Assembly (NCBI RefSeq): GCF_000504285.1
Contig: NZ_KI632511.1
Coordinates: forward strand, 4,089,372-4,153,371
Length of the DNA stretch: 64,000 bases
Direction of reading: 5' to 3'
Source: Actinospica robiniae DSM 44927
GTDB lineage: Bacteria > Actinomycetota > Actinomycetes > Streptomycetales > Catenulisporaceae
Below the pieces are notes generated by a model. It was not told the DNA's origin. It searched no databases and saw only the letters and a list, made by a program, of their open reading frames with translations. The translations under genes and the position numbers were made by a program. This document shows positions 4,161 through 57,566 of the stretch, one piece after another. The number at the start of each line of letters is the position of its first letter. Within the stretch, counting starts at the first letter, position 1.

Positions 4161-4570
4161 CCGCCCACTCGTTGCGTTGTCGGGGCGGGCTGGGGTTTCA
4201 AGATCTCGTCTCCGGCGCGGGCCCTTCCCTCGGAGAGAGATGCCGGGGTCTGTGGGGTGCTGACGTCGGCGGGGCGGACTGGGGTTCGGGATGGTGAGGT
4301 TGCGGGGGCGTGCTCTCTCCTCGGCCGGGCCCCCGGAGGCAATCAGGAACCTGCCGGGAGGTCAAGCGGCGCGGTGGCTTGGGCTGGTGGCGGATTTTGC
4401 ATGGCGCCGCTTGACCTCCCGGCAGAACCCTGATCGGGCTTCGCCTGCCCGACCGAGGAGAGAGCACACCCCCTGAGGATCGGTACGAGCTGTGCTCGGC
4501 CCGAGACCCGTCCCGTGGCCCGGCCTCAAGGGGAACACCCACGATGCGGAAGGATTCTGCATCGCCGTTC
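4161..4570 (+). repeat. Left arm of large inverted repeat
   Basis: Reading rightwards, this arm aligns by eye over its whole length to the reverse complement of 5019-5425, with an estimated 75-80% identity. Shared landmarks in order are GTTGCGTTG, GGTTTCAAGAT, CCCTTCCCTCGGAGAGAGAT, TGCTCTCTCCTCGG, the internal hairpin, CCGAGGAGAGAG, and GGAAGGATTCTGCATCG. Substitutions and small indels are scattered along it, so this is an old duplication or two copies of a dispersed element. Confidence 0.8.
4311..4466. repeat. Nested hairpin inside left arm
   Basis: An outer inverted pair (TGCTCTCTCCTCGG at 4311-4324 and its complement at 4453-4466) encloses a perfect 22-bp inverted repeat (4351-4372 with 4404-4425, core CCGGGAGGTCAAGCGGC). 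The transcript of either strand could fold into a stem of more than 100 nt in total. Confidence 0.75.
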
Positions 4571-5018
4571 CGGGTCGCTTGTTCCATCTCTACTACTTCA
4601 ACGCCGGAAAGCGCGCTCGAGTGCCCGGAAATCTCCAGTATTTTTACTTATACGGCGAAAGCTGGATTCACGGCTTTTGTCGGTGGCGGCGTCTAGCATG
4701 GAAGAGTACGGGGGATCGGACTTGCGACGGGAGGGGTGGTGGACGGGATGGCTGCGCGGACGGCGTCAGGGGTGCGGCCGAAAGCAGTGCAGGATTTCCC
4801 CTCGGGGTGCGGCCGGGCCACGCGATCCTGCGCGGTACGCGAGCACCGGGCGGATCGGACCGGGGCGATGCAGAATCCTTCCGCATCGAACGCGGCCGGC
4901 CTGCGGGATTCTGCCGCGAGGCCTGGGATCAAGGTCGATCGCACCAAGGCAATGCACGATTCAACAGCAAGCATGACCCGGGCGCCGATCCTTCACGCGG
5001 ATCACAGATCCGGATGGC

Positions 5019-5425
5019 AGGACCACGGCGATGCAGAATCCTTCCGCGCCGAGCGCGGCCGGGCCACGGGCCGGGGCTCAGCCCGAGCGCAGCTCGCACC
5101 ACTCCCCCAGGGGGTGGGCTCTCTCCTCGGTCGGGCAGGCGAAGCCCGATCAGGGACCTGCCGGGAGGTCAAGCGGCGCCATGCAAGATCCAGCATCAGC
5201 GGAAGCCACCGCCGCTTGACCTCCCGGCAGGTCCCTGATTGCCTCCGGGGACCAACCGAGGAGAGAGCACACACCCGCAACCCCACCACCCCCAACCCCA
5301 ACCCGCCCCACCACGCCAGCACCCCACCAACCCCGGCATCTCTCTCCGAGGGAAGGGCCCGCCGGCAGCGATTTTCATCTTGAAACCGCAGCCCGTCCAC
5401 CCGCCAACGCAACGGGTGGGCGTGG
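5019..5425 (-). repeat. Right arm of large inverted repeat
   Basis: Inverted partner of 4161-4570 with the same order of landmarks. It contains the longer internal hairpin (5118-5268). A further inverted copy of the short GCGATGCAGAATCCTTCCGC motif lies at 4865-4884 in the spacer, so that motif occurs three times. Confidence 0.8.
5118..5268. repeat. Nested hairpin inside right arm
   Basis: Same plan as the left-arm hairpin. The outer pair is 5118-5130 with 5256-5268. The inner stem is a perfect 27 bp (5152-5178 with 5210-5236) around a 31-nt loop. The stem is conserved although the loop sequence differs between arms, which points to selection on pairing or to a mobile-element end. Confidence 0.75.
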
Positions 5426-29157: not shown

Positions 29158-31530
29158 TTACTGCTCTTCGTCCTCGATGCCGGCGGCGAGCTCGGCGGCG
29201 TCGAGCTGCGGCGCGCGCTGCTCGAACTCCTCGTCGTCGTCTTCGTCATCTTCGTCGTCGTCGAGGTCGTCTTCGTCGTCCTCGTCGTCGTCCTCGTACT
29301 CTTCGTCATCCTCGTCGTCGAGTTCGTCGTCCTCGTCGTCGAACTCCTCGTCGAGCTCGGCCGCGCCCTCGGCACTCTCGTCGTCTTCGCCGAAGACGAC
29401 TCCGTCGAGCTCGGCGATACGGTCCTCGGCGTCGGTGACGCCGTCCGAGTCGGCCTCGGCCGCGCGGGCGAACCACTCGCGGGCCTCGGGCTCACGGTCG
29501 GCCTCGAGCAGCGCGTCGGCGTAGGCGTAGCGCAGCCGCGCGGTCCACGGCTCGATCTGAGCGGGGGTCAGGTCGGCACCCTGCAGCATGGCCACGGCCG
29601 CGTCGACCTGGCCGAGGTCGCGGCGCGCGCCGGCGGCGACGATGCGCAGCTCGATCTGCGTGCCCTTGTCCAGCTCCTTGGCCTCCGGCGCCTGCGCCAT
29701 CTCCAGCGCCTTCTCCGGACGCCCGAGCCCGCGCTCGCAGTCGGCCATCACGGCCCACTGGTGGTTGGACCCGGTGATGCGCCGCGCGGCACGCAGCTCG
29801 GCGAGCGCCTCGGCGTACCGGTCGGACAGGTAGGCGGTCAGGCCGAGCGCCTCGCGGGTCGCGGCCAGGCGCGGCGCGAGCTGCTGAGCCGAACGGGCGT
29901 ACTGGTAGGCCTTCTCCGGGTCCTCGTCGATGAACCGGCCGGCCATGACCAGGTGGCCGCCGACGAGCTGGGCCTTCATCCGCACGAGGGTGCGCAACTC
30001 GGCCCGGATGTCCTCGTCGAGGTCGTTCAGGTCGATGTCGTCCGGCAGTTCGAGGTGCGGGGCCTGCTCGCGCTCGGCCGCCGGCTGCGCGGGACGCTCG
30101 TCCCGGCGGAACCCGCCGCGCTCGCCGCCACGGTCGTCGCGACGCTGGAAGCCGCCGCGGTCCGGACGGTCCCCGCCACCGCGGTTGTCACGGTCGCCGT
30201 AGGACGGACGACGGTCACCGTACGAGGGACGGTCCCCGCCGCGGTCATCACGACGCTGGAAGCCACCACGGTCCGGACGGTCCCCGCCACCGCGGTTGTC
30301 ACGGTCGCCGTAAGAGGGACGACGGTCGCCGTACGACGGCTTGTCACCCCGGTCATCACGGCGCTGGAACCCGCCACGGTCCGGACGGTCCCCACCGCCA
30401 CTGCGGTTGTCACGGTCGCCATAGGAGGGACGACGGTCACCGTAAGAGGGACGGTCGCCACCGCGGTCATCGCGACGCTGGAAGCCGCCACGGTCCGGAC
30501 GGTCCCCACCGCCACTGCGGTTGTCACGGTCGCCATAGGAGGGACGACGGTCACCGTACGAGGGACGGTCCCCGCCTGTGCGGTTGTCACGGTCTCCGTA
30601 GGACGGACGACGGTCACCGTACGAGGGGCGGTCCCCGCCGCGGTCGTCACGACGCTGGAAGCCACCACGGTCCGGACGGTCCCCGCCTGTGCGGTTGTCA
30701 CGGTCGCCGTAGGACGGACGACGGTCACCGTACGACGGGCGGTCCCCGCCACGGTCGTCACGACGCTGGAAGCCACCACGGTCCGGACGGTCCCCGCCTG
30801 TGCGGTTGTCACGGTCGCCGTAGGACGGACGACGGTCACCGTACGACGGGCGGTCCCCGCCACGGTCGTCACGACGCTGGAACCCGCCGCGCTCGCCACC
30901 GCGGTCATCGCGGCGCTGGAAGCCACCACGGTCCGGACGGTCCCCACCGCCACTGCGGTTGTCACGGTCGCCGTAAGAGGGACGACGGTCACCGTACGAG
31001 GGCTTGTCACCGCGGTCATCACGGCGCTGGAACCCGCCACGGTCCGGACGGTCCCCACCGCCACTGCGGTTGTCACGGCCCTGATAGCCGCCACGCTCGC
31101 CACCGCGGTCATCGCGCCGCTGGAAACCGCCGCGCTCACCACCACCGCGGTTGTCACGGTCGCCGTAAGAGGGACGACGGTCACCGTACGACGGCTTGTC
31201 ACCCCGGTCATCACGGCGCTGGAACCCGCCACGGTCCGGACGGTCCCCACCGCCACTGCGGTTGTCACGGCCCTGATAGCCGCCACGGTCACCACCGCGG
31301 TCATCGCGCCGCTGGAAACCGCCGCGCTCACCACCACCGCGGTTGTCACGGTCGCCGTAGGACGGACGACGGTCACCGTACGAGGGGCGGTCGCCGCCCG
31401 AACGGCCCTTGTCGTCTTCGCGGCGGCCGACGTTCCGGTCGCCACGGGACTGGCCGGCCACACGCTTGTTTCCCCCCGAGGGGCGGCCCGTCATAGGACG
31501 CTTGGGGCGGCCGGAAGAGGAAGTAGACAT
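29158..31530 (-). CDS. TPR protein with giant RGG/RDD-type repeat region and acidic tail
   Basis: 790 residues from MSTSSSGRPKRPM. Residues 47 to about 480 are tandem repeats of low complexity: ten blocks of PSYGDRRPSYGDRDNR alternating with DRGGFQRRDDRGG units, about 37-65 residues each. Then a helical domain (about 500-715: LPDDIDLNDLDEDIRAEL, RFIDEDPEKAYQYARSA, RYAEALAELRAARRI) looks like TPR repeats and resembles conserved actinobacterial proteins. The end (716-770) is nearly all Asp/Glu. Arg-Gly-Gly/Tyr-rich regions bind RNA and promote condensates in other proteins; that role is inference here. It lies immediately downstream of the rrn operon on the same strand. Confidence 0.82.
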   Translation of the reverse strand: MSTSSSGRPKRPMTGRPSGGNKRVAGQSRGDRNVGRREDDKGRSGGDRPSYGDRRPSYGDRDNRGGGERGGFQRRDDRGGDRGGYQGRDNRSGGGDRPDRGGFQRRDDRGDKPSYGDRRPSYGDRDNRGGGERGGFQRRDDRGGERGGYQGRDNRSGGGDRPDRGGFQRRDDRGDKPSYGDRRPSYGDRDNRSGGGDRPDRGGFQRRDDRGGERGGFQRRDDRGGDRPSYGDRRPSYGDRDNRTGGDRPDRGGFQRRDDRGGDRPSYGDRRPSYGDRDNRTGGDRPDRGGFQRRDDRGGDRPSYGDRRPSYGDRDNRTGGDRPSYGDRRPSYGDRDNRSGGGDRPDRGGFQRRDDRGGDRPSYGDRRPSYGDRDNRSGGGDRPDRGGFQRRDDRGDKPSYGDRRPSYGDRDNRGGGDRPDRGGFQRRDDRGGDRPSYGDRRPSYGDRDNRGGGDRPDRGGFQRRDDRGGERGGFRRDERPAQPAAEREQAPHLELPDDIDLNDLDEDIRAELRTLVRMKAQLVGGHLVMAGRFIDEDPEKAYQYARSAQQLAPRLAATREALGLTAYLSDRYAEALAELRAARRITGSNHQWAVMADCERGLGRPEKALEMAQAPEAKELDKGTQIELRIVAAGARRDLGQVDAAVAMLQGADLTPAQIEPWTARLRYAYADALLEADREPEAREWFARAAEADSDGVTDAEDRIAELDGVVFGEDDESAEGAAELDEEFDDEDDELDDEDDEEYEDDDEDDEDDLDDDEDDEDDDEEFEQRAPQLDAAELAAGIEDEEQ
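30090..31392 (-). repeat. Tandem repeat array inside the TPR/RGG coding sequence
   Basis: About 1.3 kb of imperfect tandem DNA repeats encoding the Gly/Arg/Asp/Tyr-rich region. Most units are 111-117 bp with some longer composite units (about 150-195 bp). Adjacent units near 30590-30890 are nearly identical at DNA level, so unit number probably changes by recombination. Every unit is a multiple of three, so the frame is kept. Confidence 0.85.
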
Positions 31531-38536: not shown

Positions 38537-40222
<1,686 letters not shown>

Positions 40223-40226
<4 letters not shown>

Positions 40227-41585: not shown

Positions 41586-41662
41586 ATGAGCGAGCTTGCG
41601 AGCGAATCATCAGGCACAGAGTGTGCGCGAACGCGCCGACCGAGCTCTAGCGAGGTCGCGTC
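41586..41662 (+). repeat. 77-bp start-codon cassette, copy A
   Basis: Begins ATGAGCGAGCTTGCGAGCGA and ends at the base before the GTG of copy B. It encodes 26 residues ([10 protein letters not shown]... ending SSSEVAS), and its TGA overlaps the next GTG. It is identical to copy B over most of its first 50 bases. Confidence 0.85.
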
Positions 41663-41739
41663 GTGAGCGAGCTTGCGAGCGAATCATCAGGCACAGAGTG
41701 TGCGCGAACGCGCCTACCGAGCGCTCGCGCGGTGGCTGC
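41663..41739 (+). repeat. 77-bp start-codon cassette, copy B
   Basis: Direct tandem neighbour of copy A with the same length. It begins GTGAGCGAGCTTGCGAGCGA, encodes 26 residues ([10 protein letters not shown]... ending PSARAVAA), and its TGA overlaps the GTG start of the SAM-hydroxide adenosyltransferase gene. Confidence 0.85.
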
Positions 41740-42588
41740 GTGAGCGCCTCTGCCAGGTCCTGGATCGGGTTCCTCTCCGACTACGGCCTGAGCGACTGCC
41801 ACGTCGGGATCTGTCACGGCGTCATCGCCGCGACGGCGCCCGCGGCCCGGGTGATCGACCTGTGCCACGAGGTGCCGCCGGGGGATCTGCGCAGCGGGAG
41901 CGCGCTGCTGGCCCAGGCCGCGCCGTACCTGCCGGCCGGGGTGCTGCTCGCCGTGGTCGATCCGGCGACCGGGCCGGGCGCGGGCACCCGGCGGCGGGCC
42001 CTCGCCGTGATCGCGGGCAAGAGCGTGCTGGTCGGTCCGGACAACGGACTGCTGCTGCCGGCCGCGCGGGCGCTGGGTGGGGCGAGCGCGGCGCACCAGA
42101 TCGTCTCGAAGACGCACGTGCGCCACCCGATCTCCGCGACCTTCCGCGGCCGGGACCTGTTCGCGCCGGTGGCGGCGCACATCGCGGCCGGGCTCTCCCC
42201 CGCCGCGCTCGGACCGGAGGTCCCGGTGGACGCGCTGGTGCGGCTGCCCGAGCCGGTCTCGCGGCTGACGGCGCATCGGCTGGAGGGCGAGGTGCTCTCG
42301 GTGGACCGGTGGGGGACGGTTCAGACCACGCTCGGCGCGGGGCTCTTCGAGGAGGCCGGCCTGCGCGTCGGCGACACGCTGACGGTGCACTGCCGGACCG
42401 GCGAGGTGAAGGTGCCGTTCGGCCGCAGCCACGCCGACGTCCGGCCGGGCGAGTCCGTGGGCTACCTGGACTCGGCCGGGCTGTTCGCGCTGGCCCGGCA
42501 CACGAACTCGGCGGCGCTCGAGCTCGGACTGCAGCCGGGGGACTCGGTGGCGGTCCGGCTGCCCGCGACCATGGACATCTCCCGGTGA
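41740..42588 (+). CDS. SAM hydroxide adenosyltransferase (DUF62, fluorinase/chlorinase superfamily)
   Basis: 282 residues from the GTG after cassette B (SASARSWIGFLSDYGLSD). Family marks are FLSDYG, VIDLCHEVPPGDLRSG, VVDPATGPGAGTRRRALAV, LVGPDNGLLLPAA and HPISATFRGRDLFAPVAAH. The Asp-Arg-His triad that activates water in DUF62 enzymes is present, so the likely reaction is SAM plus water to adenosine and methionine rather than halogenation. It is about the usual length. It is the first gene of a two-gene plus-strand islet splitting the aro cluster. Confidence 0.88.
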   Translation: MSASARSWIGFLSDYGLSDCHVGICHGVIAATAPAARVIDLCHEVPPGDLRSGSALLAQAAPYLPAGVLLAVVDPATGPGAGTRRRALAVIAGKSVLVGPDNGLLLPAARALGGASAAHQIVSKTHVRHPISATFRGRDLFAPVAAHIAAGLSPAALGPEVPVDALVRLPEPVSRLTAHRLEGEVLSVDRWGTVQTTLGAGLFEEAGLRVGDTLTVHCRTGEVKVPFGRSHADVRPGESVGYLDSAGLFALARHTNSAALELGLQPGDSVAVRLPATMDISR

Positions 42589-56700: not shown

Positions 56701-56777
56701 ATGAGCGAGCTTGCGAGCGAGTCATTAGGCACAGTGCTTCGCGCACGCGGCCTACCGAGCGCTAGCGAGGTGGCGGT
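56701..56777 (+). repeat. 77-bp start-codon cassette, copy C
   Basis: Begins ATGAGCGAGCTTGCGAGCGA and ends GAGGTGGCGGT at the base before the GTG of the GNAT gene. The frame encodes MSELASES... [10 protein letters not shown] and continues three codons to a TAG at 56788-56790, because the downstream gene starts GTGC rather than GTGA. A -10-like GAGAAT ends seven bases before its ATG. Confidence 0.85.
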
Positions 56778-57566
56778 GTGCACGGTATAGAGACGGTCAC
56801 CCGGTTCGACTCCTACCGGCAGCTGCCCGCCGAGGTGCTCGACGACGCGCTGCTGCGGCTCGAGACCGACCCCGGCATCCTGCACGGCGCGTGGACCACT
56901 CCCGGCGGCTACGCATTCGCCTCGATCGACTCCTACGGCGGCGACCCGTGCTGGCTCAACGTCGTGGCCGATCCGGCCGTCGCGCTCGCCCTGGTCGAGG
57001 CCGCGATGGCCGACCTCGGCGACGCCTGCTTCGGGATCACCGTGCCGCGCGGCGTCGACGTCAGCCGCTGGGTGGTCGCCGATCCCGGCCACGGCTCGTG
57101 GGACCTGATGCGCTGCGACGAGCCGCCGGCCGCCCAGCCCGGCGAGGACCGCGTCCGCGTGCTGACGGATCTCGCCGCGGTGCAGGCCTTCCTGGACCGG
57201 GTCAACCCGAGCCACTCGGTGCGCGCCGACCACGCCGAGGTCGAGCGGTGGATGGGCGTGGCCGACGAGGCGAGCGGCGAGTTGCTCGCGCTCGGGGCTT
57301 TCACCCGCCGCGTGTCCGGCGTCGCCTATCTCGCCTCCATCGCCACCGACGCCCAAGCCCGCGGCCAAGGACTCGGCGCGGCGGTGACCGCTGTACTCAC
57401 CCGGCACGCGTTCGCGTCGGGGGATGTTCTGTGCACCCTCGCGCACTACCACCCCAACGAGCCGGCCCGGCGGCTCTACCTGCGGCTCGGCTACCGGACG
57501 ACCCATCAGAACCTGTCCAATCCGCTGCCCCGGCCGGCCGCGCCCGCCGACGGAACCCCGGCATAG
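56778..57566 (+). CDS. GNAT-family acetyltransferase
   Basis: 262 residues from the GTG directly after the 77-bp cassette. The C-terminal GNAT fold has [20 protein letters not shown] with the acetyl-CoA loop and ends [15 protein letters not shown]. The N-terminal 120 residues carry [19 protein letters not shown], a diverged first half. It is the first gene of the GNAT-MurA-HipA group (27-base gap to the MurA-like gene). Confidence 0.82.

Follow-up and report, generated by a model that had tools for sequence, protein, structure and literature searches.

What does a 77-nt cassette that directly precedes the start codon of a gene encode, and how does it come to lie there? The question is raised by four such cassettes (copies A to D, Table 1) in a 64,000-nt stretch of the Actinospica robiniae DSM 44927 chromosome, which we call the window. 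An earlier note on this DNA, made from the letters, had read the cassette as a conserved 26-residue peptide, which might act as such or might be translated merely to deliver ribosomes to the next start.

Table 1. Cassette copies, their parts and their target genes in the window (positions are those of the 64,000-nt stretch).
Feature	Position	Strand	Description
Copy C	56701..56777	+	77-nt element adjoining the start codon of a GNAT gene
Copy C, left hairpin	56701..56722	+	Own start of the cassette comes first; its hexamer RTGAGC and guide 1 can pair
Copy C, guide 1	56717..56722	+	GCGAGT; most copies in the own genome have GCGAAY or GCTCAY
Copy C, guide 2	56741..56746	+	GCGCAC; 5 of 6 positions complementary to the gene start GTGCAC at 56778
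Copy C, right hairpin	56752..56773	+	CTACCGAGCGCTAGCGAGGTGG; guide 2/start-codon pairing extends it outward
Copy C, GAGGTG (Shine-Dalgarno-like)	56767..56772	+	5 nt ahead of GTG 56778; source of 'SEV' in the peptide
Copy C, open reading frame	56701..56790	+	ATG 56701, 29 codons, stop 56788-56790
Copy C target, GNAT acetyltransferase	56778..57566	+	Pfam PF00583, E 6.4e-10
Copy A	41586..41662	+	Unit 1 of a two-unit array
Copy B	41663..41739	+	Unit 2 of the A/B array
A/B target, SAM hydroxide adenosyltransferase	41740..42588	+	Pfam PF01887, E 1e-41
Copy D	40150..40226	-	Guide 1 in the GCTCAT form, guide 2 GCGAAT
Copy D target, shikimate kinase	39616..40149	-	Pfam PF01202, E 2.7e-41

The anatomy given in the earlier note was borne out. 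A 26-codon frame whose TGA overlaps the next RTG is present in copies A, B and D, the stop of copy C comes three codons later, and SEVA occurs in copies A, C and D, with ARAVAA in copy B. With up to three mismatches, the 20-nt cassette start occurs four times in the window against 0.03 expected. Upstream of copy D, a 449-codon frame terminates at the cassette's first TGA. In the alignment of copies, columns 67-72 are near-invariant and read GAGGTG, which matches the anti-Shine-Dalgarno sequence.

The window represents a small part of a large family. In the own chromosome (9.92 Mb, one contig), a covariance model gave 56 matches and we count about 55 copies, partly in tandem arrays of similar units; an exact 18-mer was found 35 times (reversed control 0) and a 20-mer with up to three mismatches 58 times (control 3). 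Own-genome counts leave out loci L196, L197, L042 and L186 and one SDR gene start that resembles the cassette. Among 52 own units, taken without copy D and two late model matches (L405, L406), the length is 77 nt in 45, 71 nt in 3, 74 nt in 2 and 80 nt in 2. All of these except copy C (51/52) end in an RTGA that overlaps the next start, and the corresponding -4 overlap was seen in 94 of 136 copies from contigs of other species.

An exact 20-mer scan of GTDB species contigs returned at least 120 rows. Among the matches listed, the contigs belong mainly to what we take to be Pseudonocardiaceae, Micromonosporaceae, Geodermatophilaceae and Nocardia, with some mycobacteria and MAGs. The model was then run on 12 genomes chosen for holding the 20-mer, with 150 candidates scored per genome. 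It gave at least 118 matches in Actinoplanes regularis, at least 83 and at least 81 in two Kutzneria, at least 79 in a Geodermatophilus, at least 50 in Actinokineospora iranica, at least 43 in Nocardia mexicana, at least 17-21 in four others and one each in two mycobacteria. Within the window's own family the element is found in 3 of 14 genomes, all of the window's genus.

Seven rows from gut Clostridia or Ruminococcus (L076, L084, L108, L163, L170, L080, L101) also carry the 20-mer. Its surroundings there are different and partly recurrent (with CAACGCGAACCGCGCC after it, for instance), and it looks unrelated; these loci were removed before the guide 1 count and all that depends on it. Membership of a known Rfam RNA was rejected, since no family scored above its cut-off: the best for copy C was RF03031 with 18.3 bits against 37.3, and the stretch with A, B and D gave none.

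Where the cassette inserts can be read from its right end and from sites that lack it. All 35 gene-facing right ends listed run into open frames of at least 90 codons (a 36th row is an array unit). Read by eye, many of the targets presumably encode familiar proteins, among them HemA, Dop, PurH, LysA, Zwf, Asd and Nuo subunits; Pfam was run on the window genes. Two genomes of the same genus supplied element-free orthologues. In one of them (G003), the copy C site reads gcgagaatccagagc followed directly by ATGAACGGTACAG, and in the own genome gcgagaatcttgagc, the 77 nt and GTGCACGGTATAG. The G003 orthologue of the A/B target, likewise free of the element, begins at the same place as the gene in the window. 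For hemA, the flank gaatgaggtgttgccggc of the empty orthologue is identical up to the insertion point and continues with ATGAGC; for nuo2, aggagctaccg is followed by ATGAGC. Empty orthologous sites with small flank differences were found for nuo2, dop, thiL, purH, zwf and others.

Some copies have a left start that differs from that of the gene. In seven of eight clear cases (purH, zwf, L037, L058, L183, L184 and L189; the exception is L039) the native start is that of the gene, so the left RTG seems to be brought by the element. Copy C, whose two orthologues disagree, was set aside in this count, and L181 has no clear orthologue. As judged from empty sites and overlaps, the cassette lies before native start codons and its frame ends on the next start. 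In a rough motif scan upstream of 36 first units, the raw counts were 6 for a -10-like TANNNT close to the start and 21 for a stretch resembling a Shine-Dalgarno sequence.

Several features of the ends bear on how they are cut and joined. The left and right first bases are the same in 54 of 65 single contig copies, which would also fit target-site duplication. The bases directly 5′ of both starts match over at least 4 nt in 11 of 88 single copies (1.6 expected) and over at least 1 nt in 62 of 88 (about 41 expected). Moreover, arrays in Kutzneria and Actinoplanes regularis have inner junctions of 78 nt, with a fused frame, next to a gene-facing unit of 77 nt (L090, L096, L165, L112, L328, L339, L416).

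Some left ends have no recognisable right end and run in frame into gene-like sequence (L130, L118, L135, L169, L075, L166 and, in genome G002, L226); a protein N-terminus seems to have arisen here from the residues with which the cassette opens. A replication-strand bias of the kind seen in single-stranded DNA elements is not striking: 24 of 39 own loci run with replication, assuming an origin at dnaA and a terminus opposite.

How, then, are start codons found? Compared letter by letter, each of the two hexamers at the flanking start codons has its complement in an internal 6-nt segment of the cassette; we call these segments guides 1 and 2. Column pair 47/78 has the strongest corrected mutual information in 40 own elements (array units included), and column 78 is the first base of the downstream gene. 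The pair ranks third in the pooled 89 elements and is absent from the 22 pairs listed for the 49 contig elements alone. In the own genome (n = 35), the guide 2 base and the gene's first base are T-A in 23, C-G in 9, C-A in 2 and undefined in 1 (p 1e-6). Among 79 gene-facing contig copies, for which the motif search also picks wrong sites, 47 matched (T-A 19, C-G 28), 13 were mismatched (C-A 10, T-G 3) and 19 were undefined (p 9e-6); L054 and L181 are scored as mismatches, and L181 also has a fitting GAGT.

Copy C stands before an odd target, GTGC, its guide carries GCAC, and the two are paired in its RNA fold. Similarly, L343 has CTTCAT at ATGAAC and L375 has CCGCAT at ATGAGG.

Complementarity was also assessed over all six bases of guide 2, a segment that, like the Kutzneria classes below, was defined after the data had been viewed. 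When targets were permuted within each set, 0 of 2000 permutations reached the observed value in the own genome (n = 35; 38 once copy D and the two late matches are included), Kutzneria CA-103260 (37), Kutzneria 744 (33), Geodermatophilus (10) and the contig set (65), and 31 of 2000 did so in Nocardia (8). Wrong-guide controls were above chance in three of five sets, with smaller gains (per 2000: 21 and 48 in the own genome, 3 and 12 in Kutzneria, 0 and 0 in the contigs), presumably as a result of linkage between guide 1 and guide 2 types. Each of the two guides has several pairing forms (GAAY, TCAY, GCAY). In Pseudonocardia, 74-nt copies (L062, L066, L085, L146) have GCGAAG at the place of guide 2, before ATGAGC.

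At the other end, the first 22 bases, RTGAGCGAGCTTGCGAGCGAAY, can fold back on themselves through R1-Y22, T2-A21, G5-C18, C6-G17 and G9-C14, with tandem G.A pairs, which are stable in this form, at 3/20-4/19 and 7/16-8/15. In 113 first or only contig copies, R1 and Y22 read A-T in 60, G-C in 38, A-C in 8, G-T in 4 and otherwise in 3 (p 4e-17 for the 110 that have Y). Covariation is weak among 23 inner array units (A-T 10, G-C 5, G-T 6, A-C 1, A-A 1; p 0.15). Rare variants are compensated (A5-T18 in L192, T6-A17 in L195), and a guide 1 of the form GCTCAT turns the G.A pairs into Watson-Crick pairs in L187-L190, L193, L194 and copy D. In Geodermatophilus, GTGAAC pairs with GTTCAC (L368) and GTGACC with GGTCAC (L365).

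In a 47-row alignment, these pairs scored above shuffles on four of five measures; the fifth, which admits further pair types, was not above them (444 of 500). Their covariation score of 0.171 exceeds those of all slid versions, the best of which reached 0.074. Guide 1 permutations were not significant in Nocardia (236/2000) and marginal in Geodermatophilus (40/2000). The folding energy of the whole element is not clearly better than that of shuffles, so the case rests on covariation. Across the aligned copies, then, guide 1 covaries with the cassette's own start and guide 2 with that of the host gene. A central stem was weak as an independent hairpin, one slid control scoring higher.

If the guides choose the target, a changed guide should go with a changed target. 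Kutzneria has a subfamily that mostly begins with GTGACC, with GGGCAC, GGTCAC or GGGAAC as guide 1 and GGTCGC as guide 2. For elements taken from the best-scoring matches, GGTCGC guides stand at GTGAC genes in 6 of 7 cases in strain CA-103260, against 2 of 30 other elements, and in 7 of 8 in strain 744, against 2 of 25; without insertions known to be shared, the latter figures are 6 of 7 and 2 of 22.

These data have to be weighed against a different role for the same complementarity. The guides could sequester start codons and the Shine-Dalgarno stretch in the mRNA, such that the gene is translated only when ribosomes traverse the small ORF; pairing would then be maintained by selection after insertion and would play no part in targeting. 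The RNA minimum-energy folds of copy C and L031, in which guide 2 is paired with the start of the gene and GAGGTG lies partly buried, are consistent with such a switch, as is the kept frame described below. So is an insertion shared by two Kutzneria species (L337/L383), in which a change of the first base came with one of guide 1, which looks like upkeep after insertion; this joint change speaks against pairing at the moment of insertion.

However, targets appear to fit before they are occupied. Three targets of the GGTCGC subfamily that are unoccupied in Kutzneria 744 start with GTGACC, GTGACC and GTGACT. Among 14 orthologues in the window's genus whose native start is clear, 13 have a first base that fits guide 2 (p 0.011). 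This table was drawn up without copy C and L190, whose orthologues disagree, L189 and L191, which have no Y in guide 2, L188 and L181, which have no clear start, and L195, where the N-terminus of the orthologue resembles the element. Second codons at shared insertions also differ between species, one being the fitting AGC: in L344/L378 and L337/L383 the guide is GCGAAC in both species, and the target is GTGAGC in one and GTGAAC or GTGACC in the other. Because empty targets fit in advance and the same guide faces differing second codons, we favour pairing at insertion over regulatory upkeep. The switch also leaves unexplained the like pairing of the cassette's own start and the way in which the element finds start codons, and we regard it as unlikely, with roughly one chance in five.

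Slightly less likely still is that no guide and no enzyme are involved, and that RTGAGC ends let slippage or template switching copy the unit by microhomology. RTGAGC does stand at both unit ends, near-identical units often form arrays, the left start correlates with the right one, the flanks show extra sharing, and a Y1 transposase was not found in most of the genomes searched for this purpose (see below). Such passive spread does not explain why an internal guide 2 should be predictive of the host base (in Kutzneria also of the host codon), nor why own-genome copies with unlike ends mostly fit each guide separately.

What of the peptide? Lengths derived from stop codons, as those of the own units and contig copies are, equal 2 mod 3 by construction, and only an independently placed right end can test the frame. 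With the frame left out of account, right ends were placed in 225 of 267 rows. Of these, 186 have a length of 2 mod 3, so that the TGA overlaps the following start, 28 one of 0 mod 3, which gives an in-frame fusion, and 11 one of 1 mod 3; 42 rows were unplaced, and the set includes a few gene starts with a likeness to the left end. Shared ancestry of the length accounts for part of this excess. Frameshifts in most copies, which the earlier note had named as evidence against its claim, were looked for and not seen. In six insertions common to two Kutzneria species, the position of the stop is identical in all six.

The amino acids behave differently. The earlier note had proposed a dN/dS-like comparison, and this gave, for 31 gene-facing 77-nt copies of the own genome, a pN/pS of 0.98 in the real frame, with 0.73 and 0.75 for the two wrong ones; the corresponding values for a Kutzneria were 1.08, 0.84 and 0.84. 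Selection on the peptide is thus unsupported. The middle of the peptide differs between copies by compensating +1/-1 shifts (RPRMR, RRECG, RARG), while MSELASE and SASEV are the spelling of the two hairpins, and SEV is the reading of AGCGAGGTG, which contains the Shine-Dalgarno-like GAGGTG. We ascribe the conservation at both cassette ends to base pairing and to the Shine-Dalgarno-like stretch. What looks like a peptide thus seems to follow from paired ends and a frame kept open, and not to be a conserved protein.

The sequence and open frame that the earlier note described are indeed shared among copies, whereas conservation as a peptide, with pN/pS close to 1, seems not to hold. Of its two options, ribosome delivery fits: the frame is kept, it overlaps the next start in nearly all own units, and GAGGTG precedes the next start of copy C. 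The option of a selected, acting peptide found no support. That a 24-27-residue protein is made, acts and is selected for its sequence is very improbable. In its favour, the frame and start are kept, MSELAS is nearly invariant and five indel-free shared insertions (L343/L385, with indels, left aside) give a pN/pS of 0.68 from 24 non-synonymous and 12 synonymous changes, few enough to make this a weak lean to constraint and not decisive. Against it stand a real-frame ratio near 1 and above the wrong frames, the compensated shifts and the near-absence of variation at the third positions of codons 3-6, seen in copies that had been picked by a similar 20-mer (a model search free of that condition added just a few). 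The start-codon base also covaries with one in codon 8, as selection on a peptide would not predict. A conserved small protein gene was rejected on the same pN/pS values, which lack the purifying selection expected of one.

The nearest known element is the mycobacterial MIRU, reportedly described by Supply et al. in 1997, whose insertion sites are DTGA; the likeness is judged from descriptions of MIRUs. In published accounts, MIRUs insert at start codons and carry an internal ORF coupled at -4 nt (PMC12548453), measure 40-100 bp (PMC2734929) and occur as repeats of 77 and 53 bp in senX3-regX3 (PMC4213456). According to PMC4128351, the 5′ UTR of Mb3239c consists entirely of a class I MIRU 77 nt long, and the M. 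marinum orthologue is leaderless. The cassette shares with MIRUs a short repeat whose small ORF overlaps the neighbouring ORFs, as its -4 overlaps illustrate, and insertion at start codons, to which its RTGA right ends and empty sites testify. In addition, thiL and dop appear to be leaderless here, as that M. marinum orthologue is said to be. The two differ in range and, as far as MIRU descriptions go, in their guides. PMC4213456 places MIRUs only in M. leprae and the M. tuberculosis complex, whereas the cassette occurs in many genera outside Mycobacterium. The cassette has two 6-nt guides complementary to the flanking starts. In our sample of 396 Mycobacterium genomes, a CRISPR repeat that we take to be a marker of the M. 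tuberculosis complex was absent.

In target choice, the closest parallel is IS608, which, according to PMC5934647, picks its target by pairing with an internal guide, and an altered guide leads to an altered target. The cassette resembles this in that a guide inside the element is complementary to the target, the choice follows the guide and hairpins lie near the ends; for the IS200/IS605 family as a whole, the match in guide pairing is one of complementarity only. The geometry differs. IS608 inserts 3′ of a target that stays in the left flank, whereas the native start of the cassette is the right one (the seven of eight mixed cases above), and IS608 guides lie 5′ of each hairpin, whereas guide 1 lies 3′ of its hairpin.

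No resident Y1 transposase was found to serve as mobiliser: a search for the Y1 (HUH) domain PF01797 gave no match in the own genome and two congeners, nor in six of eight other element-bearing genomes, the remaining two having it. REP elements are marked by a GTAG motif ahead of the hairpin and a cognate TnpA-REP. REP units, which PMC8266576 describes as high-copy palindromic units thought to be mobilised in trans, are similar in copy number, palindromes and putative movement in trans. They differ in that the PF01797 search found no Y1 transposase in the own genome and in that cassette units sit at start codons. The element is IS608-like in target choice and MIRU-like in anatomy, and we file it in neither group.

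Taken together, we put a probability of about 0.64 on the cassette being a non-autonomous repeat of the MIRU kind, which inserts at start codons by guide pairing and carries a coupled ORF whose frame, but probably not peptide, is selected. Start codons are probably chosen by base pairing, somewhat as in IS608 with another geometry. Guide 1 would fold back on the element's own first six bases (RTGAGC), while guide 2 would recognise the opening hexamer of the host gene, read in single-stranded DNA or in RNA. A hypothetical enzyme supplied in trans would deliver the element before those start codons that match its guide. Once the element is in place, its small ORF would be driven by the former ribosome-binding site or by a leaderless promoter, and ribosomes that end at its TGA could re-start on the overlapping start codon, helped by the element's GAGGTG. 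The open frame would thus be under selection, and the peptide sequence itself probably not.

Somewhat short of an even chance, in our estimate, is the wider proposal of a widespread class of tiny actinomycete elements, whose two 6-nt guides direct insertion before set second codons (RTGAGC, GTGACC and others) by a mobiliser that is not Y1-like. We know of no explanation of how MIRU-like repeats reach start codons. The limited literature collection that we searched held no guide-programmed targeting for such repeats and no account of how start codons are found, and a text search for the 16-mer and the peptide returned only unrelated material. If the wider proposal is true, MIRUs could find their start codons on the same principle. 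Pairing of a guide with start and second codon makes targeting directly testable. A further gain would be a natural module, small in size, for insertion and translational coupling in actinomycetes. For genome scans it suggests caution: strongly conserved short ORFs can be shadows of paired nucleic acid.

Two further repeats were seen in the window. Positions 30007-31398 hold tandem repeats of about 111 nt, with eight copies of a 231-nt reference in register, and positions 4217-5362 a large imperfect inverted repeat, in which one pair of 108-nt arms agrees at 91% with 626 nt between the arms.
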